The translations under genes were made by a program, and so were the position numbers. DNA of 64,000 nucleotides from Bradyrhizobium erythrophlei (GTDB taxonomy: Bacteria > Pseudomonadota > Alphaproteobacteria > Rhizobiales > Xanthobacteraceae): positions 7,084,501-7,148,500 of the forward strand of contig NZ_LT670849.1 of assembly GCF_900142985.1 (NCBI RefSeq), read 5' to 3'. Position 1 is the stretch's first letter; each line of letters begins with the position of its first letter. The notes beneath the pieces were generated by a model, which had not been told where the DNA came from, searched no databases, and saw only the letters and a program-made list of their open reading frames with translations. Shown piece after piece: positions 9,142-32,270 of the stretch.

Positions 9142-10836
9142 CTACTTGGCGATCGAGTTCCTGGCCGCCTCGATCTTTGCCTTCACGGCATCGAGGTTGA
9201 AGCTGGCCCCTCGCTGCATCGGTGGAAACTCGATCGCCGTCATCGCCAGCTTTTCGACCTGCTGCTGAACAAATACGAAGCGCCAGAATTCGTATTTGAA
9301 CCAATCGAAATATTGCTGCGCGCCGTCCTTTGTGCCGTTATTCGGCCACCCCGTGCGTTCGAAGGGATCGAGGCGAAGATTGATCAGATACGGCACGTCG
9401 GGCTTGGTCTTGTCACCAAGCCAGCCTCCGGGCTGGTCGATGAAGCGATATTTGTAGTCGTCGATGCGCACGGCACCCAATTCGCTTTCACCGAAGTACC
9501 AGATTTCGTGCCGGTTCGACGGGCCCTTGCCAGTGATCATGTCCATCTGGTTATAGCCGTCCAGATAACACTTGTAGGTCGTGTCGCCGATCTGCTTGCC
9601 CTTCTTCAGTTCGTCGGCAATGTTCGGGTTGCCAGCCGCCGCAACGAAGGTCGGAAACCAGTCCAGCCCGGAGATGATGCCGTTCTCGACCTTGCCCGCC
9701 GGCACCTTGCCTGGCCAGCGGATCATGCAGGGTACGCGGAAGCCGCCCTCAAAAACCGTCCCTTTGCTCTGCGCGAATGGCGTCTGTCCGCCATCAGGCC
9801 AGGTGAAGACCTCGGTGCCGTTGTCGGTGGTGAAGACGACGATGGTGTTGTCGTCGACGCCCATGTCCTTGAGTTTCTGCATCACGATGCCGACGTCGTC
9901 GTCGAGCTGCGCCATGCCCGCCTCGTGGATGGTCCAGCCGTTCTTGGAGTTGCGCAGCGCCTCGTACTTCGGCGACAGATGCGTGACGATATGCATGCGG
10001 GTCGGATTGAGCCAAAGGAAGAACGGCTTGTTGTCGGCCTTGGCCTTCTCGATGAACTTCAGGGCGAAGTCGCGGATTTCGTCATCCACGGTTTCCATCC
10101 GCTTGGGATAGAGCGTTCCAGCATCCTCGATTCTCTGCTTGCCAACCTTGCCCCAGCGCGGATCTACGGTAGCGTCGTCGACATTGGTCGCATACGAATG
10201 GACCATGTTGCGCGGCCCGACCGTATTCAGCAACTCCTGCGGATAGCCGGGATGCGCCGGATCTTCCATCGCGTCGAGATGATAGAGGTAGCCGAAGAAC
10301 TCATCGAAGCCGTGCACTGTCGGCAGAAATTCGTTCTTGTCGCCGAGATGATTTTTGCCGAACTGGCCGGTGGCGTAGCCCATTCCCTTTAGTGCGGTAG
10401 CGATCGTCGCCGCCTGCGCCGGTATACCGGTCGGTGCGCCGGCCTGCCCGACCGTGGTCATGCCCGTGCGAATCGGCAGTTCGCCGGTGATGAAGTTGGC
10501 ACGGCCCGCCGTGCAGCTCGCCTCCGCGTAGTAATCGGTGAACAGCATGCCTTCGGCGGCGAGCTTGTCGAGGTTGGGCGTTCGACCGGCCATCATGCCG
10601 CGGTGATAGGCACCGATATTCCACATGCCGATGTCGTCGCCCATGATGACAACGATGTTGGGCTTTTGCCCAGCGGTGGCCGGCGCTGGCTGTTGCGCTT
10701 CTGCCGGACTTGTCAGCCCAACAGCCGAGAGTGCCGAAGCGGCGACGAGAGAACTGCCGCTCAATAACAGATCACGGCGTTTCAATGCTCCGCCGGCCAG
10801 GCTCGTATCGCTATCCAGTTTTTTCATCTCGCTCAT
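9142..10836 (-). CDS. Arylsulfatase A (CTAGR type), Tat-exported
   Basis: 564 residues. A Tat signal (LKRRDLLLSGSSL...) is followed by an alkaline-phosphatase-fold sulfatase domain. Asp67/Asp68 in MGDDIG and Asp338/Asn339 in TTDNG are metal ligands. Cys108 in SCTAGR is the residue to be oxidised to formylglycine, with Ala in place of the usual Pro of CxPxR; GKNHLGD near 160 holds the catalytic Lys/His. It hydrolyses a sulfate ester in the periplasm; the substrate is unknown. It overlaps the upstream FGE1 gene by 26 bases, implying coupled translation. It is a close paralogue of sulfatase C (19733-21448). Confidence 0.92.
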   Translation of the reverse strand: MSEMKKLDSDTSLAGGALKRRDLLLSGSSLVAASALSAVGLTSPAEAQQPAPATAGQKPNIVVIMGDDIGMWNIGAYHRGMMAGRTPNLDKLAAEGMLFTDYYAEASCTAGRANFITGELPIRTGMTTVGQAGAPTGIPAQAATIATALKGMGYATGQFGKNHLGDKNEFLPTVHGFDEFFGYLYHLDAMEDPAHPGYPQELLNTVGPRNMVHSYATNVDDATVDPRWGKVGKQRIEDAGTLYPKRMETVDDEIRDFALKFIEKAKADNKPFFLWLNPTRMHIVTHLSPKYEALRNSKNGWTIHEAGMAQLDDDVGIVMQKLKDMGVDDNTIVVFTTDNGTEVFTWPDGGQTPFAQSKGTVFEGGFRVPCMIRWPGKVPAGKVENGIISGLDWFPTFVAAAGNPNIADELKKGKQIGDTTYKCYLDGYNQMDMITGKGPSNRHEIWYFGESELGAVRIDDYKYRFIDQPGGWLGDKTKPDVPYLINLRLDPFERTGWPNNGTKDGAQQYFDWFKYEFWRFVFVQQQVEKLAMTAIEFPPMQRGASFNLDAVKAKIEAARNSIAK

Positions 10837-11809
10837 CGCGTACTCCTCCTGTTCTTGTTATGCACCGAAAGCCGACATGGCTCATGGACGTGTCGACCGG
10901 CTGCGGGTGACGCGCTGCCGGCCGATAGCGGCGGCAGTAGTTCGGCGCGCACAGATGCGAGCCGCCCTTGACGACCTTGCGGGGAATTCTGATTTGCGGT
11001 TGGCATGGGTCGTAGCTTCCCGCCTCGATGCCGCCGCGCGGATTTTCTGGAACGCAGCAAACTTTCGGCGCGTCGCCGGCATGCCGGGTCGAATACCAGT
11101 CGGTAGTCCACTCCCAGACATTGCCGATCATATCGAAGAGACCGAAAGGGTTCGGCGGAAACGCACCGACCGGCGAGGTACGTGCGTATCCATCGCTGGC
11201 GAGATTCTCGTGCGGAAATGCGCCCTGCCACGTGTTGGCCATATGCCGGCCGTCCAGGGTGAACTCGTTGCCCCACGCAAACTCGGCCTGATCAAGTCCG
11301 CCGCGTGCCGCATATTCCCACTCGGCTTCGGTCGGTAGTTGCTTGCCGGCCCAGGCGGCGTAGGCCTCGGCATCCCGGTACGAAATATGCACGACGGGAT
11401 GGTCGTCGAGGCCGCGGATCGAACTGCCCTTGCCGTAAGGACGACGCCAGTTCGCGCGGAACTTGAAGCGCCACCAGTTTGCAAAGTTGTTCAGATCGAC
11501 CGAGTGATCGGGCGGATCGAAGACCAGCGAACCCGCGTTCAGCATGTGAGGCAGCGCGCCGGGATAGTCCTCAGGTTTCGGCGCGATCTCGGCAAAGGTG
11601 ACGTAACCGGTCGCCGCGACGAATTCGCGGAATTGCCGGTTCGTGACCGGCGTGCGATCCATCCAGAACCCGTCGACCGTGACGCGATGGACCGGCGCTT
11701 CTTCCGGATAATGCTTGTCCGATCCCATGCGGAATGTGCCGCCGGGAACAAGCCGCATCCCGGCTTGCTCCTGGTGTCGTGCAGCAGAGTCTGCGTCGGC
11801 AAGACTCAT
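10811..11809 (-). CDS. Formylglycine-generating enzyme 1 (SUMF1/FGE family)
   Basis: 332 residues spanning the whole FGE-sulfatase domain from VPGGTFRMGSD (~21) to HVGFRC (~316). The catalytic Cys pair is present: Cys287 and Cys292 in GGSHLCAPNYCRRYRPAAR. LPTEAEWEYAARGG and GNVWEWTTDW are the family signatures. No signal peptide, so it acts in the cytoplasm on nascent sulfatase, converting the motif Cys to formylglycine using O2 and copper. The 26-base overlap with sulfatase A points to that protein as its client. It is very similar to FGE2 (21482-22474). Confidence 0.93.
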   Translation of the reverse strand: MSLADADSAARHQEQAGMRLVPGGTFRMGSDKHYPEEAPVHRVTVDGFWMDRTPVTNRQFREFVAATGYVTFAEIAPKPEDYPGALPHMLNAGSLVFDPPDHSVDLNNFANWWRFKFRANWRRPYGKGSSIRGLDDHPVVHISYRDAEAYAAWAGKQLPTEAEWEYAARGGLDQAEFAWGNEFTLDGRHMANTWQGAFPHENLASDGYARTSPVGAFPPNPFGLFDMIGNVWEWTTDWYSTRHAGDAPKVCCVPENPRGGIEAGSYDPCQPQIRIPRKVVKGGSHLCAPNYCRRYRPAARHPQPVDTSMSHVGFRCITRTGGVRDERDEKTG

Positions 11810-12793: not shown

Positions 12794-12863
12794 TTGCCGG
12801 CGCGGCGACTGCGCGCGATGTCGGTTGTCGGTCAAAAGCCGACGTAGCGACGTAGACCACAGA

Positions 12864-12930: not shown

Positions 12931-13785
12931 TTAGTAGGTCACATTAAGCCTGACCTGCGTCTTCAAATTATAGACCGGATAATCCTTGATGATGGGCACG
13001 CCAAACTCAAACGACACCGCGATATTGTTCGAGAATTGACGCCCAACCCTGACGTCAAACGGCAGGAACAGCCGGCCGGTCTGACCCGTGATAGGATCGC
13101 CGTAGTTGATCCTGATGTCCGGGCTTGGATAGAAGGTGAGAAACCATCGGTCGGGAAGGCCGACATTAAGTGTCGGCGCAAATTGAAGGTTGCTGATATT
13201 TCTCTTGGTTGGATCGCCGGCGAAACTGACATCGTAGCGGATCACCGGCTCGAAATAGCTCGACGGGCTGATCTCCCATAACGCGTAGCGAAAGCCGCCG
13301 GCCGGCATGATCTGCCATTTTCCGGAACCGAGCGTGTCGCCACCCGTGGGGGTGATGAGGCGCGCACCGAAACCGACCGTCCAGCGCAGGTCCAAATTGT
13401 GAATGATAACGGCTTGAACGTCGGTATCCCCGACGCCTCCGACGTAATCGCCATTGGGGTTGTCTGATGTGATCGGGTTTTTTGCAACCAAAGGCAGATC
13501 TGCCCGTAATGCTAGGATCCACATCGGCGCGAGATCCAGCGAGTGGTCCATCCGCAGGTTGAGCGTCTCCGTCGTGACGTCGCGCGTGGTTCCCGGCGCA
13601 CTGCCGCTGCCGGGAGCCGTCTTGTAATCATACATCATCTGGAAAAGGTTGGCCGGAGGACGAAAGAGATCGTTGCCAGTATTGGCATTTTGATCCTGGT
13701 AAGATGCGCTCTGTGCCACCGCGCCATCGGGGCGCAGGATCACGACTGCGAGCAAGCAACCACCGATCAGTGCGCGGGCCATCAT
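12931..13785 (-). CDS. Outer-membrane beta-barrel (porin/transporter-like)
   Basis: 284 residues with a signal peptide ending GAVAQ, then alternating amphipathic strands throughout and a final strand ending QVRLNVTY, an aromatic C-terminal residue as the assembly machinery requires. The pattern resembles the phenol-degradation MetA-type transporter fold, but I cannot assign a family. Its ATG overlaps the stop of the upstream sensor kinase by four bases (ATGA), so the two are translated together. In context it could admit the substrate or product of the sulfatases. Confidence 0.75.
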   Translation of the reverse strand: MMARALIGGCLLAVVILRPDGAVAQSASYQDQNANTGNDLFRPPANLFQMMYDYKTAPGSGSAPGTTRDVTTETLNLRMDHSLDLAPMWILALRADLPLVAKNPITSDNPNGDYVGGVGDTDVQAVIIHNLDLRWTVGFGARLITPTGGDTLGSGKWQIMPAGGFRYALWEISPSSYFEPVIRYDVSFAGDPTKRNISNLQFAPTLNVGLPDRWFLTFYPSPDIRINYGDPITGQTGRLFLPFDVRVGRQFSNNIAVSFEFGVPIIKDYPVYNLKTQVRLNVTY

Positions 13786-15128
13786 AGCGGCGGGGTCGCT
13801 ATAGGGGCCACCCGCGGCAGGGTGATCCTGATTTTCGTTCCCTCGTCAGGTTCGCTAGCAAGGCTGATCTGGCCGCCCAGGCAGTTGGTGGCGATGGTGT
13901 GGACGATGTGCAAGCCAAGACCCGTACAACCCTGATCGCGCCGCGTCGTAAAAAATGGGTCGAAGGCCTTATGCCTGATGTCGGCGGTCATACCACAACC
14001 GTTGTCAGCAAATCGGATTTCGACCTCCTTGTCACCCGACGCCTGCACCTCGATGCCAATGGTACCCCCCTTTCCGTCTGGAAAGCCATGCGTCATCGAG
14101 TTGAGAAAGAGATTGCTCAACATCTGTCCATACGGCCCGGGATAACTGTTCATGGTCAGATCCGGTGGGCAGTCGAGGCAAACGGTCAGCCCCTGATCTC
14201 TGAAACCCGCCTGTAGGCTCTTGATGGCCTGCCTGGTGATATCGCCCAAATCAAAGATACGCCGATTCGACGAACTCCGGTCGATTGCCACCTGTTTGAA
14301 GGACTGAACCAGTTCGGCCGCGTGATTAAGGTTGGCGACAAGTTGCGTCGATGCCGCCCGGCTAACCTCGAGAAAATTGTTGAGGCTTGATCGCCTGAGA
14401 TTGCCTTGCGCCACTCGCGCGGCAAATTGAGCCGTCTTGCTCTCCAGTGACGAGGCGATGGTGAGGCTGGTACCAACGGGACCATTCACCTCGTGTGCGA
14501 CCCCCGCGACCAGCCGCCCGAGAGCGGCGAGCTTTTCGGATTCGATCAGCGATTCCTGCGTCTCCTGCAAATGTCGCAACGCAGCCTGAGCCGCGTCTCT
14601 GGCGCTGCGCAGCTCCCTTTCGTGGGCTTGCAATGCTGCCGCGGCTCGTTTGCGCTCGGTAACTTCCTCGGCGGCAACATTAATCCCGACAATGTCGCCC
14701 GCGTCGTTCCGTAGTGGATGCCAATAGGTCACCCACCAGCGTTCATCGGTTTGATCGGCACGCTGGCCGGCGACCTCGATGCCGGTTACCGGCTCGCCCG
14801 TTTCCATGATCGAGCGGACAATATCCTCGACCGCGTCGGCCAGCCCCGGCACGCAGTCCCGGACCGATCGTCCTAGATGATCCTCGACGGAGATGCCGCA
14901 TATCTCGGTGAGGCGCTGATTGATGTGCAAGTAGCGGCAATCCGGAGAAAGAACGGCAAGTCCTATCGGCGCCGTATCATAGATGAGCCGCAGGGCCGGC
15001 TGCTCTGGAACCGGCACGTTGAGCGTCGGCGGCGACCGCGCGGAAGTTACCCCATGTTCCCCACTCGTTGACAACAAACGCCCCTCTACGAGAACCAGCC
15101 TTTGCTCAACAACATCGCAGTATACCAC
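13782..15128 (-). CDS. PAS-domain sensor histidine kinase
   Basis: About 448 residues. A PAS domain (~45-160; RLIYDTAPIGLAVLSPDCRY) with PAC-like WWVTYWHPLRNDAG is followed by a coiled coil and a HisKA region with phosphoacceptor His in VAGVAHEVNGPVG. The HATPase has the N box NLFLNSMTHG and G boxes DNGCGM and GLGLHIV. No membrane segments, so it senses in the cytoplasm. The start is uncertain: GTG 15128 or TTG 15074; the frame is open to 15290 but that part is unlike protein. There is no response regulator in the window. It follows sulfatase B in the same direction and is coupled to the porin gene. Confidence 0.82.
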   Translation of the reverse strand: MVYCDVVEQRLVLVEGRLLSTSGEHGVTSARSPPTLNVPVPEQPALRLIYDTAPIGLAVLSPDCRYLHINQRLTEICGISVEDHLGRSVRDCVPGLADAVEDIVRSIMETGEPVTGIEVAGQRADQTDERWWVTYWHPLRNDAGDIVGINVAAEEVTERKRAAAALQAHERELRSARDAAQAALRHLQETQESLIESEKLAALGRLVAGVAHEVNGPVGTSLTIASSLESKTAQFAARVAQGNLRRSSLNNFLEVSRAASTQLVANLNHAAELVQSFKQVAIDRSSSNRRIFDLGDITRQAIKSLQAGFRDQGLTVCLDCPPDLTMNSYPGPYGQMLSNLFLNSMTHGFPDGKGGTIGIEVQASGDKEVEIRFADNGCGMTADIRHKAFDPFFTTRRDQGCTGLGLHIVHTIATNCLGGQISLASEPDEGTKIRITLPRVAPIATPPL

Positions 15129-15264
15129 CGTCAAAACGGGTTGACGTAATTCGTGATCGCGATCTGGCGCAGCAATACCTCGCGGATGACGTGGGCAGCC
15201 GTCACGCGGACGGTGAAAATCGCCGCCATGCTGCCTGCCCGAAAATTTCCGGCCAACATAACCG

Positions 15265-16752
15265 TCATGGCCTTGCTCCCGGCGGCACATATGGATCGGG
15301 CGTTCCCATCGCGATCAGAGGGTATTTCTTCGTGCTCGCCTCGAATTCTCCGACCATCTTCAGCACCGGCCCGAAAATCCAGCTATCGGTAATCTGCTTA
15401 TCCTGATCCTCCCGCGGGTTGGTGTAGAGGTTGAACAGTAGCGGTATCGCTAGCTTGACCGGTGGCGAGACCATGGTCTCCTGCTGGTAGAAGTGAACCT
15501 TGAAATTTTTCCACTTCACCGCCTGCAAACGATCCGCGCACCAGATCAGGATTCCATCGCGAGCGGACTTCTCTGTTTTTCCGGTGAAGAAGTCGGATTG
15601 GTCGACGCCATCGATGGGCCGATCCTTTGGCACCTCGGCCCCAGCGAACTTGGCCAATGTGGGGAACAGATCGACGGCATGGACGATCTCGTCGCTCACG
15701 CGGCCGGCCGGGACCTTCCCGGGCCAGCGGATCAGGAAGGGCACACGAATGCCGCCCTCCCAGGCCGTGAAGTATTGGCCCTTCCAGGGTCCAGCCCAAC
15801 CTTCCCAGTCCCTTAGAAACTCCGGCCCGTTGTCGCTCGCAAAGATAACGATGGTCTCGTCGCGGATTCCGAGCCGGTCGACCGCATCGAGCATCTCACC
15901 GACGTTGTGATCCATCTCGGCCAGCATGTCGGCCCAGTCGCCGTTGCCGGTCTTGCCGACGAATGCGGGGTTAGGCAAGGTCGGCAGGTGCGGCTGTGTC
16001 AGGGTCGCATAGGCGAAGAAAGGCTTTTTCGTTCTCGCCTGCCGTTCCATGAACGCGATCGACCGCCGCGTGATTTCCGCGTCGATCAGTCGCCGTTGTT
16101 CGAGGTCGTAAATCTTGACGTCACGGCTAGGCTCGCCCTTGCGTCCCTCCATGATCTGTTCCGGCGGCATGATGTTGGGCGAATAGCCGGGCGAGCCCGG
16201 CCACATAGCCTCGTCCGTGATGCGCGGGATGCCGTACCACTCATCGAATCCCTGATCGTTCGGCAGGCGGCCGTTGTGGCTGCCGAGGTGCCACTTTCCG
16301 TTGAGCGCTGTTGCGTAACCAGCCGCCGACAGCGACTCGGCAAGCGTTACTTCCCACTGCGTAAGCCCGTCGGCGACGCCGCCGAATGGCACCGAATGGG
16401 TGCCCGACCGAATCGCGTAGCGCCCGGTTAGGATCGCGGACCGGCTTGGCGTGCACTGCGCCTCCATGTTCATGTTGGTGAGGCGAAGGCCTTCGCTCGC
16501 GAGCCGGTCGATGCGCGGTGTCGGCGCGCCGCGCGTCGCACCGCCGCCATAGACGCCAAGTTCGCCGTAGCCGAGATTGTCGACGAGCATGAACAGGATG
16601 TTGGGCGGTCGTTGCCTTGCCGGCTGCTGTGCCTGCGCGCGATGCGTGCGCTCGGCCACGCCCACCGCGGCCGCTGCCACCGCCGAGCCGCCGAGCAAGA
16701 TGCTGCGGCGACTAAACGAACGATCTCCAGACATCTCGCCTACGTTCGCCAC
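15265..16752 (-). CDS. Arylsulfatase B (CTPSR type), Tat-exported
   Basis: 495 residues from GTG 16752, with GAAGGAG six bases upstream. Tat signal SRRSILLGGSAVAAAAVG. Metal ligands Asp58/Asn59 in LVDNLGYGE (Asn where the other two have Asp). Cys100 in QCTPSR is the canonical CxPxR formylglycine site; LNGKWHLGS and FASDNGPE are the other active-site motifs. It belongs to a different subfamily from sulfatases A and C. The gene starts 15 bases after the DUF1254 protein A gene in what looks like one operon. The periplasmic sulfate-ester substrate is unknown. Confidence 0.92.
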   Translation of the reverse strand: MANVGEMSGDRSFSRRSILLGGSAVAAAAVGVAERTHRAQAQQPARQRPPNILFMLVDNLGYGELGVYGGGATRGAPTPRIDRLASEGLRLTNMNMEAQCTPSRSAILTGRYAIRSGTHSVPFGGVADGLTQWEVTLAESLSAAGYATALNGKWHLGSHNGRLPNDQGFDEWYGIPRITDEAMWPGSPGYSPNIMPPEQIMEGRKGEPSRDVKIYDLEQRRLIDAEITRRSIAFMERQARTKKPFFAYATLTQPHLPTLPNPAFVGKTGNGDWADMLAEMDHNVGEMLDAVDRLGIRDETIVIFASDNGPEFLRDWEGWAGPWKGQYFTAWEGGIRVPFLIRWPGKVPAGRVSDEIVHAVDLFPTLAKFAGAEVPKDRPIDGVDQSDFFTGKTEKSARDGILIWCADRLQAVKWKNFKVHFYQQETMVSPPVKLAIPLLFNLYTNPREDQDKQITDSWIFGPVLKMVGEFEASTKKYPLIAMGTPDPYVPPGARP

Positions 16753-16767: not shown

Positions 16768-18285
16768 CTAGACCTGCTCGAAGTCCGGCAACGGCCAGGA
16801 CCGGTCGAAATAAGCCTCGGTCGGCTGGTAGAAGCGGAAATACGCAAACCAGTTCTTGCCGGGGACGGTCGGAATCCAGTTTTGTACGAACCCGGCCGGC
16901 GCCTGCGGTCCGCAATGGATGTCCACCGAGCCGTCCGCGTTCCGCCGCAGGTCCATGCGCGAGGAGCGATCGGCAATCTTCTGCTGGTTCAGGATCAGCG
17001 CGCGCGTATCGACGTCGTACAGCGTCACTGACCAGAACAGCTTGATCGGCGGATTGGGCGGAACGCGCAGGCGATACGATCTGCCGCCGTCCAGCCACTC
17101 CCCGGCCTTGTCCTTGTATGCGCCGAGGTACGCCGACGAAGGTCCTGGCCGCTTGGGCGCCATGTCCGGCCCAGCGCCGATTGCTTCGTAGAACCAGGAG
17201 GCGCGCTCGTCGAGCAGGTTCCAGAATGCATCGGGATCGTCGGCGTCCAGTTGCAACGCGAAGTCCCAGTGGGCGTCGGACCGATATTGCGAACCCGCGA
17301 AGCGGCGCTCCGCGGTATTGGCTTTCGCCATGGCCTCGCCGATCAACGCGGCATCGGTCAGGATCCTCGTCTGCCGCGCGTCCGGCTTGAAGGGTAGGCC
17401 CTTTTCCAAGCCGAGCGGCCGCAGCATCGCGTGGTAGAAGATGTCGCGCGGCTCGATAGGCTCACTCTGAATCACGTCATCGAGCCGCTCCCAATACGCC
17501 ATCCCGCGCGGCGGCAGACCGCTCCATGCTTTCGTGCCCGCGTCCAGGACCTCCATCTTAGGCGGATTGTCGCGCTGCGCGTAGGGATACATCCGCAGTT
17601 GCGCCAGCGCCGCCTTCACACTTTCCGGATCGGGATCGGTCAGTCGCACGCCGAGGAAGATGTTGACGGTTGGCGAGCGACGCACGATGAAGCCGTCGAC
17701 GTTGTCCGGCGCGTTCTGCCCCGGCCCCAACACGAGATACTTGCCGGGCGCTCCGGTCCCCGGAATGGCGTGCTGCAATGAGTCGTTCATCGCACCCTGG
17801 ACGCCGCGCGTCGGCATTTCCAATACCAGCGGTCCCGCGGAAAGATCGGCGAACCCGAGATAGTACGGCGTCGTGGCATTGGCGGTCAGGACGCTGCGCT
17901 TTGCCTCATAAGACAGCAGGGACACGATCTGTCCGTTCCTGGCGCCGAGCTCCTTCGTGAGTCCGTGCTGAAACGAAGTGAACGCGACCGCCGGAAGGGA
18001 CCAGAGATAGGCCTGGCAGGCGCGTTGAAAATCGCGCTCGTCGTAGAGCTTGTCGATCGTCGCGTCGGTCGGGTAGCCGTTGGCGAAGTCGTGGGTAAAT
18101 TCAAGCGGGCCGATGCGCGTTTCTATTGTCTGAGGCCCGTTCACGCCCGCCGCCGCCCCCGCTTTGCCTGGCTTCGCGCCCTGGGCATTGGCCGGGACTA
18201 CCGTTCCGGTGGCAGCAAATGCGCCGAGTGCCGCAGGCGCAGCGCCGGCGAGCAGCGAGATCGCTTCTCGACGATTGGGCCTCAT
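16768..18285 (-). CDS. DUF1254/DUF1214 protein A, Tat signal
   Basis: 505 residues from ATG 18285, with AAGGAG seven bases upstream. A Tat-like signal (NRREAISLLAGAAPAALG) is followed by a DUF1254 domain (~60-200: ACQAYLWSLPAVAF, TANATTPYYLGFADLS) and a C-terminal DUF1214 domain (~370-500: YRLRVPPNPPIKLFWSVTLY, RRNADGSVDIHCGPQAP, NWIPTVPGKNWFAYFRFY). Biochemical function of this pair of domains is not established; periplasmic. It lies 10 bases after DUF1254 protein B and 15 before sulfatase B, so it probably works in the same process. Only about a quarter to a third identical to its neighbour by eye. Confidence 0.88.
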   Translation of the reverse strand: MRPNRREAISLLAGAAPAALGAFAATGTVVPANAQGAKPGKAGAAAGVNGPQTIETRIGPLEFTHDFANGYPTDATIDKLYDERDFQRACQAYLWSLPAVAFTSFQHGLTKELGARNGQIVSLLSYEAKRSVLTANATTPYYLGFADLSAGPLVLEMPTRGVQGAMNDSLQHAIPGTGAPGKYLVLGPGQNAPDNVDGFIVRRSPTVNIFLGVRLTDPDPESVKAALAQLRMYPYAQRDNPPKMEVLDAGTKAWSGLPPRGMAYWERLDDVIQSEPIEPRDIFYHAMLRPLGLEKGLPFKPDARQTRILTDAALIGEAMAKANTAERRFAGSQYRSDAHWDFALQLDADDPDAFWNLLDERASWFYEAIGAGPDMAPKRPGPSSAYLGAYKDKAGEWLDGGRSYRLRVPPNPPIKLFWSVTLYDVDTRALILNQQKIADRSSRMDLRRNADGSVDIHCGPQAPAGFVQNWIPTVPGKNWFAYFRFYQPTEAYFDRSWPLPDFEQV

Positions 18286-21448: not shown

Positions 21449-21481
21449 CTTAGGCTCCTTCTTCACTATGAGGACTGCGAA

Positions 21482-22474: not shown

Positions 22475-22973
22475 GACGCCCGGTCCTTAACGTGCGTTGC
22501 TAGGGACGGGGGTCCCGCCACGTCACCGACGCGAGGCGACGAACCCGTCAGCACCTCTTACCTATCTATAGTTGCATCTTCAGTACGATCTTCCCAGAGA
22601 CCTTGATCGTCAACCGTGTAATTCGCTGTTCTTTGCTAGCCGTGACAACAAGCCACGCCGACGAAAAGTGTGGTTCTTGCGTTAATCCTCGAAGCGTGTC
22701 GTGGACTGATCAATTTGCATCTAGCGAATGCGGCATTGTCCGACAATTCGATTCAAACGATGTTGGAGCGAGTTCCGTCGCCTCTTCGATCAGCGCGACG
22801 CAATGGAATGTTTTCGGCTGTTACCGATCTGTCACGGACATCCGGCGTGGTCTGTGGCCTACTATAGTAGCGTGAGAGCCCGTAGTTGTTCGTCTGGTAA
22901 GGCTGTGGGTTCGCGCAATGCGGCCCCGGTGCGTCGGCCGCCACTGCTTGCAAGTTTCGAGTGGGGGTTTGCA
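22475..22973. other. Divergent intergenic region (promoters)
   Basis: About 500 bases between the divergent FGE2 operon and the SphA-like gene. Several short frames are open but lack ribosome sites and protein-like composition. The stretch must hold two promoters; I see no convincing operator. The sequence just upstream of the SphA-like gene (GTGGGGG) is its ribosome site. Confidence 0.4.
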
Positions 22974-24199: not shown

Positions 24200-25216
24200 T
24201 CATGCCCAAAATGCTGTCAGTCGTTCAACGAACCAGAACGCTGCCACGACGCCGACCCCATAGGCCGTGACGGTCCGCAGCCGACGTTCGACGATATCGG
24301 GGATACGAAATTGCCTGGCCAACTGCATCACGCCGAGAACGGCGGCGAAGAAAGCAAGCTGTCCCACCTCGACGCCGATGTTGAAGGCGAGCAGCGCTAT
24401 CGGAACGTCGCCTTGTGGAAGGCCGATATCGATCAATGCGCTGGCGAAGCCGAGGCCGTGCAGAAGCCCGAATGTAAAAGCGACCGCCCATGGCCAGGAG
24501 GCGGTCAGGCTGGGTTCCCCTCGCTGCCGCCGCAGGATCTCGCTCGCCAGAAGCAGAATGCTGAGAGCAATACACGCCTCGACCGGCGGTCCCGGCACGT
24601 GGATAACGCCCAAGGTCGCAAGCGAGAGCGTGATCGAATGTGCGAGGGTGAAGCCCGTCACCGTCCACAACAGCATCCGCGTGTTGCGCACGATGAGAAT
24701 AAGCCCGAGCACGAACAGAAGATGGTCGAAGCCGAACAGGATGTGCTCAATGCCGTGCGACAGATAGGCGCCGGCGACCGCGAGAGGCCCGAGCGACGTC
24801 GCGATGTCGACCCACGGCTGCGACGGCCGCACCAGGGTGGTCGAATGCGTGCCATCCAGCATCTGCACGCGCACCAGAACATCCGTGACCGTCGCCTGAA
24901 GCCCCACGAACTCAATGCGCTTCCCCGCCAGTCCCTGGGCGCCCACGTCAATGACCTGGCGTTCGACAAGGGAATCTGAGAGCTCTTGCGCGACAGGCGC
25001 GACGACATTGTGAATCTCGTCCGGGAGGCGCAGCACAACCGGCAAGCGCATGCCGGCAAGCATCGGCGTTCGCCAAAGCAGTTGGTAGCGGCCGGGCCCG
25101 ACTTCATCGATCTGCAGATAGGCCGGCCGGACCTCGTGAGCGTGCGCGGGCTGCATCGGCACCATCAACGCCGCCAGCAGACCGGCCAACGCGACCCGGA
25201 GCCGCCGCCATTGCAT
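24200..25216 (-). CDS. HupE/UreJ family membrane protein
   Basis: 338 residues from ATG 25216 with GAGGG upstream. A signal peptide ends AHAHEVRPAYLQ, the typical start of this family, followed by a ~120-residue periplasmic beta-domain and then about six to seven transmembrane helices. SHGIEHILFGFDHLLFVLG and FGLLHGLGFASAL carry the conserved His/Asp. HupE/UreJ proteins are proposed nickel (or cobalt) permeases, but this long form is usually annotated only by homology. No hydrogenase or urease gene is near. It is the last gene of the DUF3604 operon, 11 bases after the parvulin gene. Confidence 0.85.
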   Translation of the reverse strand: MQWRRLRVALAGLLAALMVPMQPAHAHEVRPAYLQIDEVGPGRYQLLWRTPMLAGMRLPVVLRLPDEIHNVVAPVAQELSDSLVERQVIDVGAQGLAGKRIEFVGLQATVTDVLVRVQMLDGTHSTTLVRPSQPWVDIATSLGPLAVAGAYLSHGIEHILFGFDHLLFVLGLILIVRNTRMLLWTVTGFTLAHSITLSLATLGVIHVPGPPVEACIALSILLLASEILRRQRGEPSLTASWPWAVAFTFGLLHGLGFASALIDIGLPQGDVPIALLAFNIGVEVGQLAFFAAVLGVMQLARQFRIPDIVERRLRTVTAYGVGVVAAFWFVERLTAFWA

Positions 25217-25227
25217 CGATCGCGCCC

Positions 25228-26226
25228 TCACTGCGGCAACACGCCTGTCGACGCGATTGGCGCCTGAGGATTCCGCAGGCTCCCGAAGTCGACCGATTCG
25301 ATGGGCGGGACCACGACCGTGTAGCGCGCACGCATCGCCTCGTATGCAATCCGTTTGATCTCGCTCTGCTTTTGATCCAGCCAGGCGGATTTGACGTCGG
25401 GCTCGACTTCCTCGAACAAAGGCACCCGGTCCGGCTCGATAGCGTCGACGAAGACGAGATGCCAGCCATAGCCCGACTGGATCGGCCCCTGCCATGCACC
25501 GGGCTTGAGCTGAAACACCGCTTTCGCGAAACCCGGGCCAAACTCCTTGGCGATCTGGTCGGGAGCGCGTTCGGCGTAGTAGTCCTGGAACATGAAGGGG
25601 TCGGCAACCGTAGCGACCTCAGGTGTATCGGCCGGCTTACCGGAGATCTTGTCGAGTATTCCAGCAGCCCTGTCGCGAGCACCAGGTCGATCGAAGGAGA
25701 AGTACAGGTGGCGAAAGCTCGCGCGCGGCGGAAGCGCAAAGCGACCCGAATTCTGCGTGTACCAGGCCCTGAGTTCGGCCTCGCCGGGATCCTGCAAAGT
25801 GGCAATATCTGCTGCGAGAAAATCCATCTTCTGAGCCAACCGGCGCTTGATGATCTCGTCGTCCTTGTCGAGCCCAAGCGCCACGGCTTCACGGGAGAGA
25901 ATCTCCTCGCTTACCCGCTGCTCGATCAGAGCGTGCATCTGATCAGCCGTCGGCAGTGGCCGACCTTGCGCGAGCCATTGCACCGCCAATTGGCGGAGAT
26001 CGTCCTTGGTGAGCGCGATCTGATTGGTTCGGTCTGTCCGGTTGGCGGTCGGGTTCAACAATTGATAGATCGCGAAGATCAGCGCACCGGCAAAAAGGAA
26101 ATGCAGCAGGGGTTCCCGCAACCACCTGCGCACAGGCGTTGGCGGTTTCGGCCCAGTCTGTGACTCATCCAGCGCTGACTCGGACAGTTCCGAGGTCGGT
26201 TGCGGTCGGGCAAGCTGCGATGCCAT
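25228..26226 (-). CDS. Membrane-anchored parvulin-type peptidyl-prolyl isomerase
   Basis: 332 residues from ATG 26226. A cytoplasmic N-tail, one helix (LLHFLFAGALIFAIYQLL, ~40-57), then a periplasmic SurA/PpiD-like N-domain and a parvulin-like domain (SFRHLYFSFD ... WQGPIQSGYGWHLVFVDAIE). It would assist folding of exported proteins. It is in a four-gene operon with DUF3604, an uncharacterised protein and HupE, so its client may be one of these. Weak AGGCC ribosome site. Confidence 0.85.
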   Translation of the reverse strand: MASQLARPQPTSELSESALDESQTGPKPPTPVRRWLREPLLHFLFAGALIFAIYQLLNPTANRTDRTNQIALTKDDLRQLAVQWLAQGRPLPTADQMHALIEQRVSEEILSREAVALGLDKDDEIIKRRLAQKMDFLAADIATLQDPGEAELRAWYTQNSGRFALPPRASFRHLYFSFDRPGARDRAAGILDKISGKPADTPEVATVADPFMFQDYYAERAPDQIAKEFGPGFAKAVFQLKPGAWQGPIQSGYGWHLVFVDAIEPDRVPLFEEVEPDVKSAWLDQKQSEIKRIAYEAMRARYTVVVPPIESVDFGSLRNPQAPIASTGVLPQ

Positions 26227-26251
26227 GGGTTGGCCTGTCAGGATGGGGGAT

Positions 26252-27385
26252 CTATTCAACAGCGGCGTTGGCGGACGCGGCGCGCTGCAGATAGTTGACG
26301 ACGGCAAATTCGGAGGCCGGATCCTTTATTGCATTGGACTTGAGCAGCGCCGCGTATTCCGTCGCGGCGTCCCAATAGTCCCAGTCAGCCAGCTGCTGCG
26401 CCACGAACCCGGCCATCGGCGCGCGCTCCCTGATGAAAGCTCGATACGCCTGGATCACACGCTGGCGGGGCACGGTGCGATTCGCGTCGCCGTGAACATC
26501 GAGTGCAAGCAGGGCCGCCTCGATCTCCGGCATCGTCCGGCTGTGATCGGCAAAATACTTCGCCTCGACCCAGCCAACGCGGGATGGCCCGCGCAATTCC
26601 AGGTCCGCACCAATCATCGCGGCGAGGTTCGTGTCGTCGTGAGCGCTCCATGCGGCCTCGATGTGCTGCTCGAGCCGCGCGGCATCGGCCGGACCGCCGA
26701 CGAAGCCAAGCAGGAGAGTATAGGCGGCATGGCGTGAGGCGAGTCTTGGATCGTCCAGCCAGATCCCAACCGTTGCCGCATCGATCCGCGATCTCACAAC
26801 GTCCATGATCGCATATGGGGCGCGTGCCAGCTCGCCCCATGCGATCTGGGCAGCCAGCGGATCGGGGTTTTCGAGGTAGGGCAGAACGAGCGCAACACGT
26901 TGCCGCCAGCCGGCGTAGCTGAGCGTGGACGACGTCTGCATGTTCGACGGCCAGGTAGGCCTTGGACGGTCGCCTTTGACGAAAGCGGTCGCAACCAGTT
27001 GCCGCAGCCAATCCGCATATTCAGCCCGGATGGTGCCGAGATCGGTCCATTGCGAAGCAAACGGGTCACGAACGAGCAGGCATGGATCAGAGCCCGGTGC
27101 CATTGCCTCGCCGAGGCCCGTCGGCGGGTCCGCGATGATATCGCCGACGGTATCCTTCCCCTTTACGACCTCGACAATCCGGAATCGAGTCGCGCCCGCG
27201 AAAGGCACGGCCAGCACCGCTCGATCTGCCATATCCAGGCGCTGGCCGATGGTCACCATTTGGCGAGCAGCTTCATAGCAGAGCTGGCATGCCACTGCGG
27301 CCGCTGCAGAGATCAGGAGGAAGAAGGCGGCCAGCGTACACTTCAGCCGCCTCGGAGCGGGAGACCGCGGCAGTTGAATCAACAT
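26252..27385 (-). CDS. Uncharacterised exported protein of DUF3604 operon
   Basis: 377 residues with a hydrophobic N-terminal export signal (LAAFFLLISAAAAVACQLC), possibly lipidated at a Cys near 33-36. The first third is beta-like (DRAVLAVPFAGATRFRIVEV); the rest is helical, with repeat-like aromatic/Ala helices resembling HEAT or TPR packing. Not recognised as a named family. It is 10 bases after the DUF3604 gene and 25 before the isomerase gene, so they surely share a transcript. It may be a periplasmic scaffold. Confidence 0.75.
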   Translation of the reverse strand: MLIQLPRSPAPRRLKCTLAAFFLLISAAAAVACQLCYEAARQMVTIGQRLDMADRAVLAVPFAGATRFRIVEVVKGKDTVGDIIADPPTGLGEAMAPGSDPCLLVRDPFASQWTDLGTIRAEYADWLRQLVATAFVKGDRPRPTWPSNMQTSSTLSYAGWRQRVALVLPYLENPDPLAAQIAWGELARAPYAIMDVVRSRIDAATVGIWLDDPRLASRHAAYTLLLGFVGGPADAARLEQHIEAAWSAHDDTNLAAMIGADLELRGPSRVGWVEAKYFADHSRTMPEIEAALLALDVHGDANRTVPRQRVIQAYRAFIRERAPMAGFVAQQLADWDYWDAATEYAALLKSNAIKDPASEFAVVNYLQRAASANAAVE

Positions 27386-27395
27386 CGATGCCTCC

Positions 27396-29795
27396 TCAGC
27401 GCAGCACCGGCTTACCCGGCAACGGACTGAGTTCGGGCACTGCCGGGATGATCTCGTAATTCGCGAAGCCGAACTCGTTGCTGCGGGCGCCGTAATACTT
27501 GTCTCCCAGCTTGTAGGCGGTGACTTCGATCGGCGTGCCGGCGATCACGGTGACGATCTTGCCATTGTTGACGTAATAGGGCGAGGGCGTGCCGAGATAG
27601 CTGGCCCCCGCCGGATCGCCGACGGCGCTTGGCTGGACAACGCCACGGCCGGCGTGATCGATCAGGCTCTGACCCTGATTTTGGGCGAGTTTTGACGTCA
27701 CATACGTCGGATCGATCGGCGTGAGCGTTTGCGTCGCATTGGCCGCCCCCGACGCGCTATAGGTGATCTTGAACTTCGTGCCGGTGACGTTGTTCTGCAG
27801 CCACGGGGACTTGTCGACGATCAGCGCCTTCAGCTGAGCATCGTTGAGCGCGACTGCCCCCTGCTTCATGAGATCGTCGACGGTGAGACCAGCCTTGGCG
27901 ATTTTCTGCGCCTCGGCGGTCGGGCTGTACCAGATTGGGGAACTCCACGCCCGCTCTTGTACGGTTGCCGCCACCACGTCGGGCGGCGCGATGCCGAGTT
28001 TCGCGGCCTGGATCGTCGTCCAGCGCGGCGTCGGAACCTCGAGCACACGCGCATAGTAGAACGCCGGAACGCCCGGATCGAACTCAGGATCGGTCCACAC
28101 GGTCTTCAGTTCGACCGCGCCGCTGCTGTTCGTGTATGTGGCTTTTTCGACGTCGACGGTGCTTGCGATCGGCGGCACGCGACCTGTCCACTTGTCGGGC
28201 TCACGGTCACCCGCCCAGGCGACGTCGAAGACCTTCTCGAAGCTTTGACCGCTCTTGGTCCAGCCCTTGATGACCTGGATGCGGTCGAGATTGCCAGACG
28301 TGGGATCCTTGACTGCCCACACCGCGAATGACGGTGTCTTGTCGCCAGCGGGCATGGGGGTGAGGTCCCCGCCCATGGCCACACCCTGCGCATAGGCAGC
28401 CTTGACCCAATCGCGATCCTTGATCCAGTCCGGCACGGACTTCCAGAACGCCCGCCGCTGCTCGGCCGTCGCAGTCTCGGCATAATTCCAGCCGCCGAAG
28501 AAGCGAACCTTGATGTGCGGGCCGCTGACCGCGAAGGTCTCCTTGCGCTTCATGGCGTTGAAGATCGACTCGCGCGTGTTCTCCTCCGCCCACACCCCGG
28601 TGAGCCCGGCGGGGCCTTCCATGCGCACATCGAGGCCGGCGAACAGATGTCCCGACATCCGCGTCTCGATGGTTGCGTCGGCGATTCCATGGGCCCCGAA
28701 GAAGTTGTCCTGGCGATAAGGCACCCCGGTGTCGTGCGAGTCGGAAGCGGCGCCGAAACCGAACCTGTAGGGGTTGAAGCCCTTGGTGTCTTCGAGTGCG
28801 AGCCCATCCTTTAGAGCCTGGCGGGCATAGCTGCCGATGACATGCGGAATGCGGCCGGAGGGATCGCCGAGGAGATAAGTAAGGATCTCGAAATTGGCGA
28901 ATTCGTCATTGGGCGAGAGCAGAGGGTGGGTCTCCGATTGCCCCTTGATCTGCTTGAGCTCGATCAGAGGTTCATTGCGCATCCGGGATTCAGCGTAGAC
29001 TTTGTCGATCGGTCGCCCCTTTAGGTCGACGTCGGTTGGATACATGCGCCCATCCGACAGGTTGGCGTTGTGCGAGATTGCGAGAAGTTCGTTGCCCGCC
29101 TTGCGCTGTCCGTCCATCCAGGTCCACAGGTCGGTCGGGTCAGGCGAATCGAGCGAACTGAACGGCATCGCCGGCACATGGGCGCAATCCTTGAAGAAGA
29201 CATTGCGGTGGAGGTTCATGTTGTTCGGCATGGATGTCCACTCATAGCTGCAGAAGGCGGTGAACTTGCCGGGTTCATTGGCCTTGTCCGCGAGTTGGAC
29301 GTTCTGTTCCCAGATCGTGTGCGCGATCTCGGGACTCGCGAGCGCCTTGACCGGGGCGCCACCGAGCAAATTGGCGCCGTAGAGATAAACTCTTTGCACC
29401 TCTTCTGGGCTGTTGTTCTTGAGGATCAGCGGCGCCGCGGCTGGCAGCTTGCTAATCGGCGAACCGGGATCATTGGCCAACTTCATCACACCGACATATT
29501 CGGAGTGATCGGTGACGCCCGCGAAGTCGAGCGGCGTCTCGATCTTGATGTCGTAGCCGAGCGGATGCTTGATGGTCTCGCCCTTGAAATATTTGTAGGC
29601 ATCGCCGGGATCCGTCACGCGATTGCCGAACAACCACGCATCCAGCGACCAGCTGGTGTGGACATGCAGCTCGCCGAAATACGCATCGCGGAGCGGGTTG
29701 ACCTGAGCTAACGCGGGTGAAGCGATCAGACCGATCAGACCGCCGGCGCCCAGTATGAACGTTGCGAGATAGCGTTGCTTGGACGTCCGTTTCAT
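27396..29795 (-). CDS. DUF3604 protein (PHP-like putative metallohydrolase)
   Basis: 799 residues. A Sec signal peptide ends ASPALAQ. YFGELHVHTSWSLDAW (His44, His46) and FAGVTDHSEY (Asp96, His97) mirror the first two metal motifs of PHP phosphoesterases; SHNANLSDG and GAASDSHDTG supply further His/Asp ligands, so the metal site looks complete. DUF3604 is a PHP-superfamily family with unproven substrate. Exported, full length. First gene of an operon with an uncharacterised protein, a parvulin and HupE. A hydrolase of esters or phosphates is plausible beside the sulfatases. Confidence 0.88.
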   Translation of the reverse strand: MKRTSKQRYLATFILGAGGLIGLIASPALAQVNPLRDAYFGELHVHTSWSLDAWLFGNRVTDPGDAYKYFKGETIKHPLGYDIKIETPLDFAGVTDHSEYVGVMKLANDPGSPISKLPAAAPLILKNNSPEEVQRVYLYGANLLGGAPVKALASPEIAHTIWEQNVQLADKANEPGKFTAFCSYEWTSMPNNMNLHRNVFFKDCAHVPAMPFSSLDSPDPTDLWTWMDGQRKAGNELLAISHNANLSDGRMYPTDVDLKGRPIDKVYAESRMRNEPLIELKQIKGQSETHPLLSPNDEFANFEILTYLLGDPSGRIPHVIGSYARQALKDGLALEDTKGFNPYRFGFGAASDSHDTGVPYRQDNFFGAHGIADATIETRMSGHLFAGLDVRMEGPAGLTGVWAEENTRESIFNAMKRKETFAVSGPHIKVRFFGGWNYAETATAEQRRAFWKSVPDWIKDRDWVKAAYAQGVAMGGDLTPMPAGDKTPSFAVWAVKDPTSGNLDRIQVIKGWTKSGQSFEKVFDVAWAGDREPDKWTGRVPPIASTVDVEKATYTNSSGAVELKTVWTDPEFDPGVPAFYYARVLEVPTPRWTTIQAAKLGIAPPDVVAATVQERAWSSPIWYSPTAEAQKIAKAGLTVDDLMKQGAVALNDAQLKALIVDKSPWLQNNVTGTKFKITYSASGAANATQTLTPIDPTYVTSKLAQNQGQSLIDHAGRGVVQPSAVGDPAGASYLGTPSPYYVNNGKIVTVIAGTPIEVTAYKLGDKYYGARSNEFGFANYEIIPAVPELSPLPGKPVLR

Positions 29796-30053: not shown

Positions 30054-30372
30054 TTAGTAGCGACGGAAGCCACGACGGTAAGCATAGCCTCTACGCACAC
30101 CATAGCCATATCGATGGACACCGTAGCCGTACCGATAGACGGGGGCGGTACGAATACAGTGCCATCCCAAACCAGGGTCGCGCCAGACAACGAAAACGAT
30201 CGGACCAACAACGAGGGGCTCATGACATATTATCTTAGCGGCGGACAATTGCAGCGCGCTCACGGAAACGGGTCAACTCAAACTCCATTTCGTGTCAAAA
30301 GCGTCGGTTCCCGTTGAAGGCGAGTGCGAAAAGCACGGAGACGACGGCAAATGACCGCTTGCCACGTTTCAT
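30054..30372 (-). pseudogene. Broken gene for small basic secreted protein
   Basis: ATG 30372 has a perfect AGGAGG seven bases upstream and encodes only MKRGKRSFAVVSVLFALAFN plus GNRRF before a stop at 30295: a signal-peptide start with no mature domain. Downstream, a different frame ending at 30054 reads a Tyr-Gly-Val-His/Arg-rich tail (VYRYGYGVHRYGYGVRRG), typical of small secreted proteins such as the one at 11981-12193. A frameshift or small deletion most likely split one gene. The 25-residue piece could also be a real micro-protein. Confidence 0.35.
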
Positions 30373-30824
30373 GGCCCAGCCTCCTAAGGTCGAAAAACAC
30401 GGCGAGTTTGGAGTGACGGCGCAGTTCGTCATTGAGGTACAGCCTTTATTCATCCGCAACAGCTTCCAACAGTTTTTTGCCTGCGTGCCTTCGTATCAAC
30501 CAAAAAACCCTTTTGTTCAAACCGAAGTGGATCTGGAACAAGATTCCCGATGTCATCCGCGACAGGACCGCTCAGTAACCAGACCTGTCGCATTACGGAC
30601 TCAAGTCGGACATCGAGCCATGTCCGAAAAGGGGGTTAGAAGCTGACATGGCGACGGGGATCACGGGATGTCGGCTGTACCTCGAAAGGCGGACATTGTG
30701 CCAACAAGGGACATCCAACCTGACGCATTGCTTGATTTGGCATAGACGCGCGCGCAGAGCGAGCCTAGCCTTGCCGTGCCAGTCTACGTTGAGCCCAAGC
30801 CGCAAATCGGGAAGGAGTGTTCAA
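30373..30824. other. Intergenic region rich in interspersed repeats
   Basis: About 450 bases with no convincing gene. It holds two ATGTC...GACAT repeat units (30620-30649, 30668-30696) close together, and the promoter for the DUF1254 gene at 30825. Confidence 0.45.
30620..30696. repeat. Two interspersed repeat units
   Basis: Units at 30620-30649 and 30668-30696, each bounded by ATGTC and GACAT; the first aligns with the others when read on the minus strand (core TCAGCTTCTAACCCCC). They are separated by 18 bases. Confidence 0.5.
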
Positions 30825-32270
30825 ATGTTGACGAAACGCGATCTTCTTCGTTCCGCCGCCTTGGCTGCAATCATTGCCTCAACAGCGAAGTCCTTCCCGT
30901 TGCACGCACAGACGAGCGCCGACCGCCCCGGCTTTTTCAAGGCAAAAGACATCGCGGAAGCAGGTTTCATCTATGGTTTGCCGATCGTGATGAATTACGG
31001 CGTCATGTATGAATACGCCGTCGATCGCAATTCGGGGCAGTTCAAGGCCCCGTTCAATCAGCTCAAGAACGAGCCCAACGTCTTCACCTACAAAGACACA
31101 GCCATTCCCACGCCGAACAGCGATACTCCCTATTCGTTCGTCTGGATGGATTTGCGGGCAGAGCCCGTCGTCTTGTCGGTCCCGGCGGTAGACCCGAGGC
31201 GCTACTACTCGGTCATGCTCTGCGACGGCAATACCTACAACTACGGCTATATCGGCAGCCGGGCCACTGGAAGCGAAGCCGGCGACTACATGGTGGTCGG
31301 GCCGAATTGGAAGGGCGCAACGCCACCCGGGATCAAGAAGGTGTTTCGGTCAAGCACACAATTTTCGGTGGCCGGGTATCGCACCCAGCTTTTCAACCTG
31401 GACGACCTCGACAACGTCAAGAAGGTCCAGGCCGGCTACAAGGTGCAGACACTTTCCACCTATCTCAAGCAGCCGGGTACGGTAGCTGCCGCGGCGGGCA
31501 TCGACTTTCCGAAGATCGACAAGGAGCTCGTGAAGACGAATTTCTTCGAATACCTCGACTTTGCGTTGCAGTTTGCGCCCGCGCAAGAAAATGAAAAGGA
31601 GATGCGCGCCCAGCTTGCACGCATCGGCGTTGGGCCGGGCAAGACCATGAATTTCAAGGACCTCTCAATTGAGGACAAGCTTGAGATTGGCTTGGGTATG
31701 AAAGAAGGCGATCGAAAGGTTGACGGGGCTGTCGCCAATGCCGGCAAGGCGGTCAATGGCTGGCGGGTAAGTGGACTACCGGGCGACAGTACCCACTACA
31801 ATGGCGACTGGTTGATGCGCGCTGCCGCCGCGAAGGCCGGGATCTACGGCAACGATCCCGCGGAAGCGACCTATCCAATCACACGCATCGATAGCGACGG
31901 CCAGACGCTCGACGGTAGCAAACGTAATTACACGCTGACGTTCCCGCCCGGTCAGCAGCCGCCCGTGAACGCTTTTTGGTCGTTGACCATGTACGACGGC
32001 AAAACGCAGCTCCTGATCGAGAACCCAATCAATCGCTACCTGATAAATTCGCCCATGCTGCCGAACATGAAGACGAACGCGGATGGGTCGCTAACACTTT
32101 ACATCCAGAACAAATCGCCCGGTGCCGATAAGGAAGCCAACTGGCTGCCGGCTCCAAACGGCACGATCTATCTGGTCATGCGGCTCTACTGGCCGAAGGC
32201 CGAAGCGCCTTCGATCTTGCCCCCGGGTGAAGGGACTTGGCAGCCACCTGCGATCGCACGGGCGACATAG
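30825..32270 (+). CDS. DUF1254/DUF1214 protein C
   Basis: 481 residues from ATG 30825, with GAAGGAG seven bases upstream. The signal is Sec- or weakly Tat-like (LTKRDLLRSAALAAII...). DUF1254 domain: AEAGFIYGLPIVMNYGVMYE and TPNSDTPYSFVWMDLRAEPV; DUF1214 domain: NYTLTFPPGQQPPVNAFWSL, MKTNADGSLTLYIQNKSP, NWLPAPNGTIYLVMRLYWPK. It is more distant from proteins A and B than they are from each other. It stands alone on the plus strand and ends at a terminator 170 bases further on. Periplasmic, function unproven. Confidence 0.88.
   Translation: MLTKRDLLRSAALAAIIASTAKSFPLHAQTSADRPGFFKAKDIAEAGFIYGLPIVMNYGVMYEYAVDRNSGQFKAPFNQLKNEPNVFTYKDTAIPTPNSDTPYSFVWMDLRAEPVVLSVPAVDPRRYYSVMLCDGNTYNYGYIGSRATGSEAGDYMVVGPNWKGATPPGIKKVFRSSTQFSVAGYRTQLFNLDDLDNVKKVQAGYKVQTLSTYLKQPGTVAAAAGIDFPKIDKELVKTNFFEYLDFALQFAPAQENEKEMRAQLARIGVGPGKTMNFKDLSIEDKLEIGLGMKEGDRKVDGAVANAGKAVNGWRVSGLPGDSTHYNGDWLMRAAAAKAGIYGNDPAEATYPITRIDSDGQTLDGSKRNYTLTFPPGQQPPVNAFWSLTMYDGKTQLLIENPINRYLINSPMLPNMKTNADGSLTLYIQNKSPGADKEANWLPAPNGTIYLVMRLYWPKAEAPSILPPGEGTWQPPAIARAT

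Follow-up and report, generated by a model that had tools for sequence, protein, structure and literature searches.

The 64,000-bp window analyzed here, positions 7,084,501 to 7,148,500 of the 7.53-Mb single-contig genome of Bradyrhizobium erythrophlei (G000:C1:7084501-7148500), carries a run of genes for type I sulfatases, formylglycine-generating enzymes (FGEs), and proteins with DUF1254 and DUF1214 domains. Our preferred interpretation, to which we assign a probability of about 0.58, is that this is a horizontally acquired locus for the processing of sulfate esters in the periplasm, in which a pair of DUF1254 proteins would act on the organic substrate or on its desulfated product. The interpretation draws on the gene content, the FGE and sulfatase motifs, the operon-like spacing, the recurrence of the arrangement in congeners, the clade-specific linkage, and the anatomy of tRNA gene, integrase, and repeat, all of which are supported by the sequence. 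Structures have been solved for the widespread DUF1254/DUF1214 family, and a recurring partnership with sulfatases offers a testable context for it.

Gene organization of the sulfatase locus

Seven genes form a tight run on the minus strand from position 22474 to 12931, in the order FGE_C (21482..22474), SulfC (19733..21466), DUF1254_2 (18296..19708), DUF1254_1 (16768..18285), SulfB (15265..16752), a PAS-HATPase sensor kinase (13782..15290), and a barrel protein (12931..13785). The gaps along this run are, in order, 15, 24, 10, 15, -26, and -4 bp, such that the kinase, whose true start is uncertain, overlaps SulfB by 26 bp and the barrel gene by 4 bp. The listed start of DUF1254_1, at 18471, overlaps the next gene, and an ATG is available at 18285. 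We infer that the run from FGE_C to the barrel gene is co-transcribed. A second minus-strand run begins 1121 bp further on and consists of FGE_A (10811..11809), SulfA (9142..10836), and a gene for a TAXI/NMT1-type binding protein (7635..9059), with gaps of -26 and 82 bp. An SphA-like outer-membrane barrel with a PF13557 match is encoded on the plus strand at 22728..24044, divergently from FGE_C and the operon, and a third DUF1254 gene, DUF1254_3, lies apart on the same strand at 30648..32270. The preliminary description of this DNA, made from its letters and ORFs, had listed three sulfatases, two FGEs, three DUF1254/DUF1214 proteins, two barrels, a PAS kinase, and a TAXI-like protein, and had noted that the FGE-sulfatase order occurs twice; the inventory was recovered in full at the same positions, and the two FGE-sulfatase pairs have gaps of 15 and -26 bp.

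All three sulfatases matched PF00884 (169.6-178.9 bits against a cut-off of 25 bits), with E values of 1.9e-52, 1.3e-49, and 3.8e-50 for SulfA, SulfB, and SulfC, respectively, and each has a twin-arginine leader. This and the other export leaders (Tat and Sec) reported here were judged by eye from the sequence. Type I sulfatases carry the modification motif C-x-P/A-x-R, which reads CTAGR in SulfA, CTPSR in SulfB, and CTAGR in SulfC. SulfC could be aligned with arylsulfatase A across the active-site motifs. The sulfate-binding active-site lysine, which we take to be Lys302 in arylsulfatase A numbering, is present in SulfC by alignment and in SulfA by motif, and the position is Tyr in SulfB. Both FGEs matched PF03781 (E about 1e-84); alignment of FGE_C to human SUMF1 showed conservation of both active-site cysteines, and the CAPNYC stretch of FGE_A is, by eye, the same as that of FGE_C. 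The locus resembles known FGE and PF00884 loci in that a CxA/P-x-R sulfatase directly follows its FGE, the cysteines are of SUMF1 type, and the motifs are like those of arylsulfatase A. It differs from them in that one island holds two FGE-sulfatase pairs and a third sulfatase, which run in the same direction as two DUF1254 genes, a kinase gene, and a barrel gene.

For the sensor kinase no HisKA domain was matched in Pfam, and an H-box-like stretch is visible by eye. The barrel at 12931..13785 lacks a Pfam match of its own; it was assigned to the PF13557 type because most of the 120 listed relatives (of 1856) carry that domain. The TAXI-like protein met the Pfam NMT1_3 cut-off and scored 66.4 bits against the NCBIfam model TRAP_TAXI (TIGR02122), below the cut-off of 84.35.

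DUF1254 and DUF1214 were both found above cut-off in each of the three window proteins. DUF1254_1 has a twin-arginine leader and DUF1254_2 a Sec-type leader, and both belong to the VPA0735 fold, the former by sequence and the latter by structure model. A fold search with the DUF1254_2 model returned only weak matches beyond VPA0735, VPA0106, and 6ans, so that no enzyme class can be named. Positions occupied by N, R, Y, and D are near-invariant in DUF1254 proteins, which suggests a ligand site. VPA0735 itself (PDB 2p3y and 3vb9) was deposited as uncharacterized, whereas in the window two of its relatives stand in one run with sulfatases and an FGE. In the available parts of the open-licence literature searched we found no experimentally proven function for DUF1254/DUF1214, and in that literature no publication joining any two of VPA0735, DUF1254, DUF1214, and sulfatase. 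For a Malassezia PF06742 protein a role as a beta-glucan hydrolase has been proposed from modeling (PMC4634964). In the metagenome protein P0047, a DUF3302-like stretch and a relative of DUF1254_2 share one reading frame; this appears to reflect two adjacent genes read as one and not a genuine fusion.

Recurrence of the DUF1254-sulfatase arrangement in Bradyrhizobium

We surveyed 31 genomes of the genus, which yielded 90 long DUF1214 genes in 61 clusters, 83 SulfC-like sulfatases, and 49 FGEs after the exclusion of 31 of 121 DUF1214 matches (one short protein of 195-257 aa per genome), 5 of 88 sulfatase rows (second pieces or extra weak rows), and 10 of 59 FGE rows (7 at 44-47% identity and 3 second pieces). 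The preliminary description had held that rare co-occurrence elsewhere would speak against a link, an outcome that the survey did not give. A SulfC-like sulfatase was found within 10 kb of 13 of the 61 DUF1254 clusters, the window's pair included, and an FGE near 8 of them, as compared with 0.54 and 0.39 expected if genes are placed evenly (Poisson tails of 3e-14 and 9e-9, respectively); the majority of clusters, however, have no sulfatase nearby, and DUF1254 is therefore no general partner of sulfatases. FGEs and sulfatases were closely coupled, in that 39 of the 49 FGE rows had a SulfC-like sulfatase on their own strand at no more than 2.5 kb. The number of long DUF1214 genes per genome was 0 or 1 in the 10 genomes without a SulfC-like sulfatase and 0-11 in the 21 with one (Mann-Whitney p 1e-4).

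Stretches were retrieved for the 12 linked clusters outside the window (13 stretches, one cluster being in two halves), for 7 more sulfatases, for the 47 clusters without a SulfC-like neighbor, and for 20 controls at hand-picked round positions; genes in them are ORFs called by a simple script and not by a gene finder. DUF1254, sulfatase, and SphA genes were each found in none of the 20 controls and an FGE in one. The 47 further clusters included another sulfatase in 6 cases (the long CSPTR type I lineage in 5 and one more sulfatase in 1), an SphA gene in 13, and an FGE in none. The SphA count exceeded that of the controls (13/47 against 0/20, p 0.007), and the SphA-like barrel is a recurrent neighbor.

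In six congeneric loci (L087, L088, L089, L092, L094, and L098) the order FGE-sulfatase-HAD phosphatase is followed by DUF1254 genes, and in others (L090, L096, and L097) a MoxR-DUF58-VWA-BatD unit is added. Components that reappear around the fuller loci are a DUF3302-HlyD pair, an SphA gene, an AraC regulator, a dCache cyclase, and an SsuA-like protein. A leader is visible by eye in the HAD phosphatase, which has 4ovy as a solved relative. The DUF3302 and HlyD-type proteins stand beside DUF1254 in several of these loci, and such a pair is known from Escherichia coli as YiaW/YiaV. No model match for the HAD phosphatase, DUF3302, or HlyD was obtained in the window, nor were the MoxR-DUF58-VWA-BatD genes found there, and the locus in the window represents a reduced version of the larger, patchy gene set of its congeners.

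Clade specificity of the sulfatase link

A tree was built from 81 DUF1254 rows of the genus stretches. The clade of DUF1254_2 was linked to sulfatases in 10 of 11 rows (9 SulfC-like and 1 other), the remaining row (L162) being near a contig end, and the closest clade of DUF1254_1 was linked in 3 of 3; a clade of short DUF1214 proteins was linked in 8 of 10, as compared with 1 of 25 rows in two other large clades of 13 and 12 rows, although the tree rows and the samples of the Fisher tests are not independent and the compared clades were chosen after the tree had been inspected. An earlier tree agreed with this pattern but was biased, its loci having been selected by their sulfatase. DUF1254_3 falls in a mixed clade of 10 rows, of which 5 are unlinked, 3 are beside long CSPTR sulfatases, and 2, itself included, are SulfC-linked. 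We conclude that the link between DUF1254 and sulfatases is clade-specific and not obligate. The partnership proposed in the preliminary description therefore narrows: DUF1254_1 and DUF1254_2, which combine a tight gene run with linked clades, are neighbors and probable partners of the sulfatases, whereas DUF1254_3, from its mixed clade, is probably outside the system, and the family at large is not included.

Distribution beyond the genus

Loci selected by SulfC comprised the best 80 of at least 588 relatives, with flanks of varying length. Among these 80, a DUF1254 gene was present in 14 (12 of 35 alphaproteobacterial loci, 0 of 1 betaproteobacterial, and 2 of 6 others), an FGE in 30 (0 of 30 gammaproteobacterial), and a MoxR or DUF58 match in 38. 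DUF1214 genes occur in 45 of the 50 genomes behind these loci, Vibrio included, and in 31 of 31 genomes of Bradyrhizobium. Bat-type MoxR-DUF58-VWA-BatD operons thus adjoin the same CTAGR sulfatase family, but were not found in the window. In the available titles and abstracts of the open-licence literature we found no description of a sulfatase-MoxR operon. Sulfatases of the SulfC family with the CTAGR motif were seen beside MoxR-DUF58-DUF4381-VWA-VWA/TPR-BatD in Vibrio, Shewanella, Photobacterium, Rhizobium, Bosea, Kaistia, and others (for example L010, L037, L050, L078, and L085), and in the Vibrio locus L037 the sulfatase is also beside multiheme cytochrome and TPR genes.

DUF1254_2 was used to select plasmid loci, and 14 of the 56 plasmid records with a relative were retrieved. 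A type I sulfatase lay within 10 kb in 6 of the 14, and these were all six of the Rhizobium plasmids. An isolated case (1 of 14) is an Agrobacterium pusense plasmid (L210, 8636-14518), in which a DUF1254 pair directly precedes a type III alkylsulfatase of the metallo-beta-lactamase family, beside a DUF900 hydrolase. Among the sampled genera, Bradyrhizobium and Rhizobium thus show a strong link, which was not observed in the remaining ones. A survey of the class with DUF1254_2 at E 1e-110, a cut-off that is possibly too strict, matched only the source genome among 289. Distant relatives of the barrel at 12931..13785 were present in 6 of the 14 plasmid loci (37% identity over 101 residues to the L209 copy), and on four Rhizobium plasmids (L205, L206, L207, and L209) they lie directly upstream of the DUF1254_2 relative. 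No relatives of this barrel were found in the 60 other DUF1254 stretches of Bradyrhizobium. The preliminary description had substrate entering through both barrels; of the two, the SphA-like barrel recurs as a neighbor, and the second has distant relatives at the plasmid loci though not in the other stretches of the genus. On the Rhizobium plasmids L206, L209, and L211, a gene of the putative sulfate exporter family (PF03601) is a few kilobases from the DUF1254 pair.

A probable tRNA-Glu island

Integration probably took place at a tRNA-Glu (TTC) gene, at 3884..3958 on the plus strand. The 16 bases that end this gene (3943-3958) have one other exact copy in the genome, at 39180..39195 on the same strand, and the two copies of this direct repeat delimit an element of 35.2 kb that encloses the whole locus, with the right copy as its probable right end. 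Adjacent to the tRNA gene is a plus-strand gene for a tyrosine integrase of 441 aa (4076..5401), which scored 24.9 bits against PF00589, just under the cut-off of 27.1. Past the right repeat are genes for MoeA and an NAD-linked molybdopterin oxidoreductase, among others. A search with a longer tRNA end (25 bases, at most 2 mismatches) matched only this tRNA-Glu and a second tRNA-Glu. The island is not distinguished by composition, with a GC content of 0.597 compared with 0.600 and 0.610 in the flanks and 0.602-0.624 in three other stretches of the genome, and a call on that basis was rejected; the assignment rests instead on the tRNA-Glu, integrase, and 16-bp repeat. The 12 congeners searched keep the tRNA-Glu and have the right flank located elsewhere, so that they do not show an empty site. 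The horizontal acquisition asserted in the preliminary description accordingly stands as probable on anatomy.

Another CTAGR sulfatase of this genome, at 1556283-1557971, lies in a stretch (L173, G000:C1:1547000-1566999) amid what are by eye phage-like genes, and an integrase-like ORF there adjoins the other tRNA-Glu (CTC). This may be a second element that carries a sulfatase and sits at a tRNA-Glu gene.

Proposed function and competing explanations

The locus could operate as follows. In the cytoplasm, FGE would turn the cysteine of each sulfatase motif into formylglycine, and the folded sulfatases would then be exported via Tat. A sulfated organic compound would be admitted through a PF13557 outer-membrane barrel, its sulfate would be removed by the periplasmic sulfatases, and the exported DUF1254 pair would bind or transform the organic substrate or desulfated product ahead of uptake, with the PAS kinase controlling the locus. 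We infer the export routes, the flow through the barrel, the role of DUF1254, the sensing, and the existence of a sulfated substrate.

Several observations weigh against this proposal. Outside the window, 47 of the 61 clusters lack any SulfC-like sulfatase at up to 10 kb, and the frequency of other sulfatases among them is not significantly different from that of the controls (6/47 against 0/20, p 0.17). A pairing of DUF1254 with type III alkylsulfatases as a rule was rejected for Bradyrhizobium, the nearest of 35 PF14863 rows being 35 kb from a DUF1254 gene. When the sister pair of the DUF1254_2 clade is included (L150 and L159, both unlinked, in stretches shortened by contig ends), linkage falls to 10 of 13, and in the next wider clade of DUF1254_1 it is only 5 of 9. 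Among the best 80 SulfC relatives, DUF1254 was found in 0 of 30 gammaproteobacterial loci (24 with near-full flanks) and in 0 of 8 from Planctomycetes/Verrucomicrobia (2 with near-full flanks), and the sampled Vibrio genomes hold DUF1214 genes elsewhere, yet none at these loci. No sulfatase lay within 10 kb in 7 of the 14 plasmid loci (2 Cupriavidus, 2 Microvirga, 2 Sinorhizobium, and 1 Streptomyces) and no FGE in any of the 14. Lastly, the Tyr of SulfB at the sulfate-binding position, which is shared by its 87% relative in L095, indicates that SulfB may be impaired or altered, possibly with a different substrate or activity.

The strongest competing explanation is that DUF1254 and sulfatase genes are accessory catabolic genes that gather in mobile regions and share no common compound. 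The location on a probable tRNA-Glu island, the patchiness of both families, and the plasmid loci without a sulfatase are consistent with this, as are the Cupriavidus plasmid locus, where DUF1254 is accompanied by AMP-binding, acyl-CoA dehydrogenase, and CoA-transferase genes, and the growth of both families with genome size (Spearman 0.66 for sulfatases and, more weakly, 0.40 for DUF1214). Such gathering does not, however, sit well with gaps of 10-24 bp across FGE_C, SulfC, DUF1254_2, DUF1254_1, and SulfB, with the FGE-sulfatase-HAD order ahead of DUF1254 genes in six congeneric loci, or with a linkage that is clade-specific and not general. We consider this explanation unlikely, though it keeps appreciable weight.

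It is distinctly improbable that the DUF1254 proteins are accessory or folding factors for the sulfatases and not substrate enzymes or binding proteins. MoxR-type proteins are often regarded as chaperones, and their genes stand beside the same sulfatase family, while DUF1254 adjoins sulfatases of two type I lineages; but sulfatases of the family lack DUF1254 in 66 of the best 80 loci, DUF1254 is also found without sulfatases and once beside a nonhomologous type III alkylsulfatase, and the near-invariance at N, R, Y, and D points to a ligand site. Least probable of all is that the sulfatases scavenge ester sulfate while DUF1254 serves a carbohydrate or lipid pathway of its own that merely shares the operon or barrel, a view to which the VPA0735 fold, the hydrolase role modeled for the Malassezia protein, and SphA near 13 of the 47 clusters lend some support but against which the tight gene run and the clade-specific linkage speak.

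Returning to periplasmic sulfate-ester processing, a DUF1254 clade that is nearly always encoded beside sulfatases in Bradyrhizobium narrows the search for its function to sulfate-ester chemistry. A broader proposal is tentative, and we judge it somewhat likelier to be wrong than right: certain DUF1254/DUF1214 clades may be dedicated sulfate-ester partners, as exported enzymes or binding proteins for the organic part, within a larger, mobile, and so far undescribed system of FGE, CTAGR sulfatases, HAD phosphatase, DUF3302-HlyD, PF13557 barrel, dCache cyclase, and MoxR-Bat unit. That CTAGR sulfatases adjoin MoxR-Bat genes in bacteria from Vibrio to Rhizobium provides another lead for testing, in which the question is what sulfated compound needs a MoxR-Bat unit, a phosphatase, and a DUF1254 pair.

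The neighboring DUF3604 block

Between the SphA-like barrel and DUF1254_3 is a minus-strand block (24200..29795) of HupE/UreJ_2, PPIase, HEAT-like, and DUF3604 genes, which falls inside the span of the preliminary description but was not listed in it. By eye DUF3604 resembles PHP proteins, and no solved structure is related to it by sequence. We rejected this block as a member of the sulfatase system: in 10 retrieved DUF3604 loci (weak partial matches in G065 and G106 having been left out), PPIase and HupE were present in 10, a sulfatase or FGE in none, and DUF1254 in 1. The block is a separate neighboring module, and DUF3604-(HEAT-like)-PPIase-HupE/UreJ_2 is recurrent as such in the genus, with a HEAT-like match in 2 of the 10 loci.

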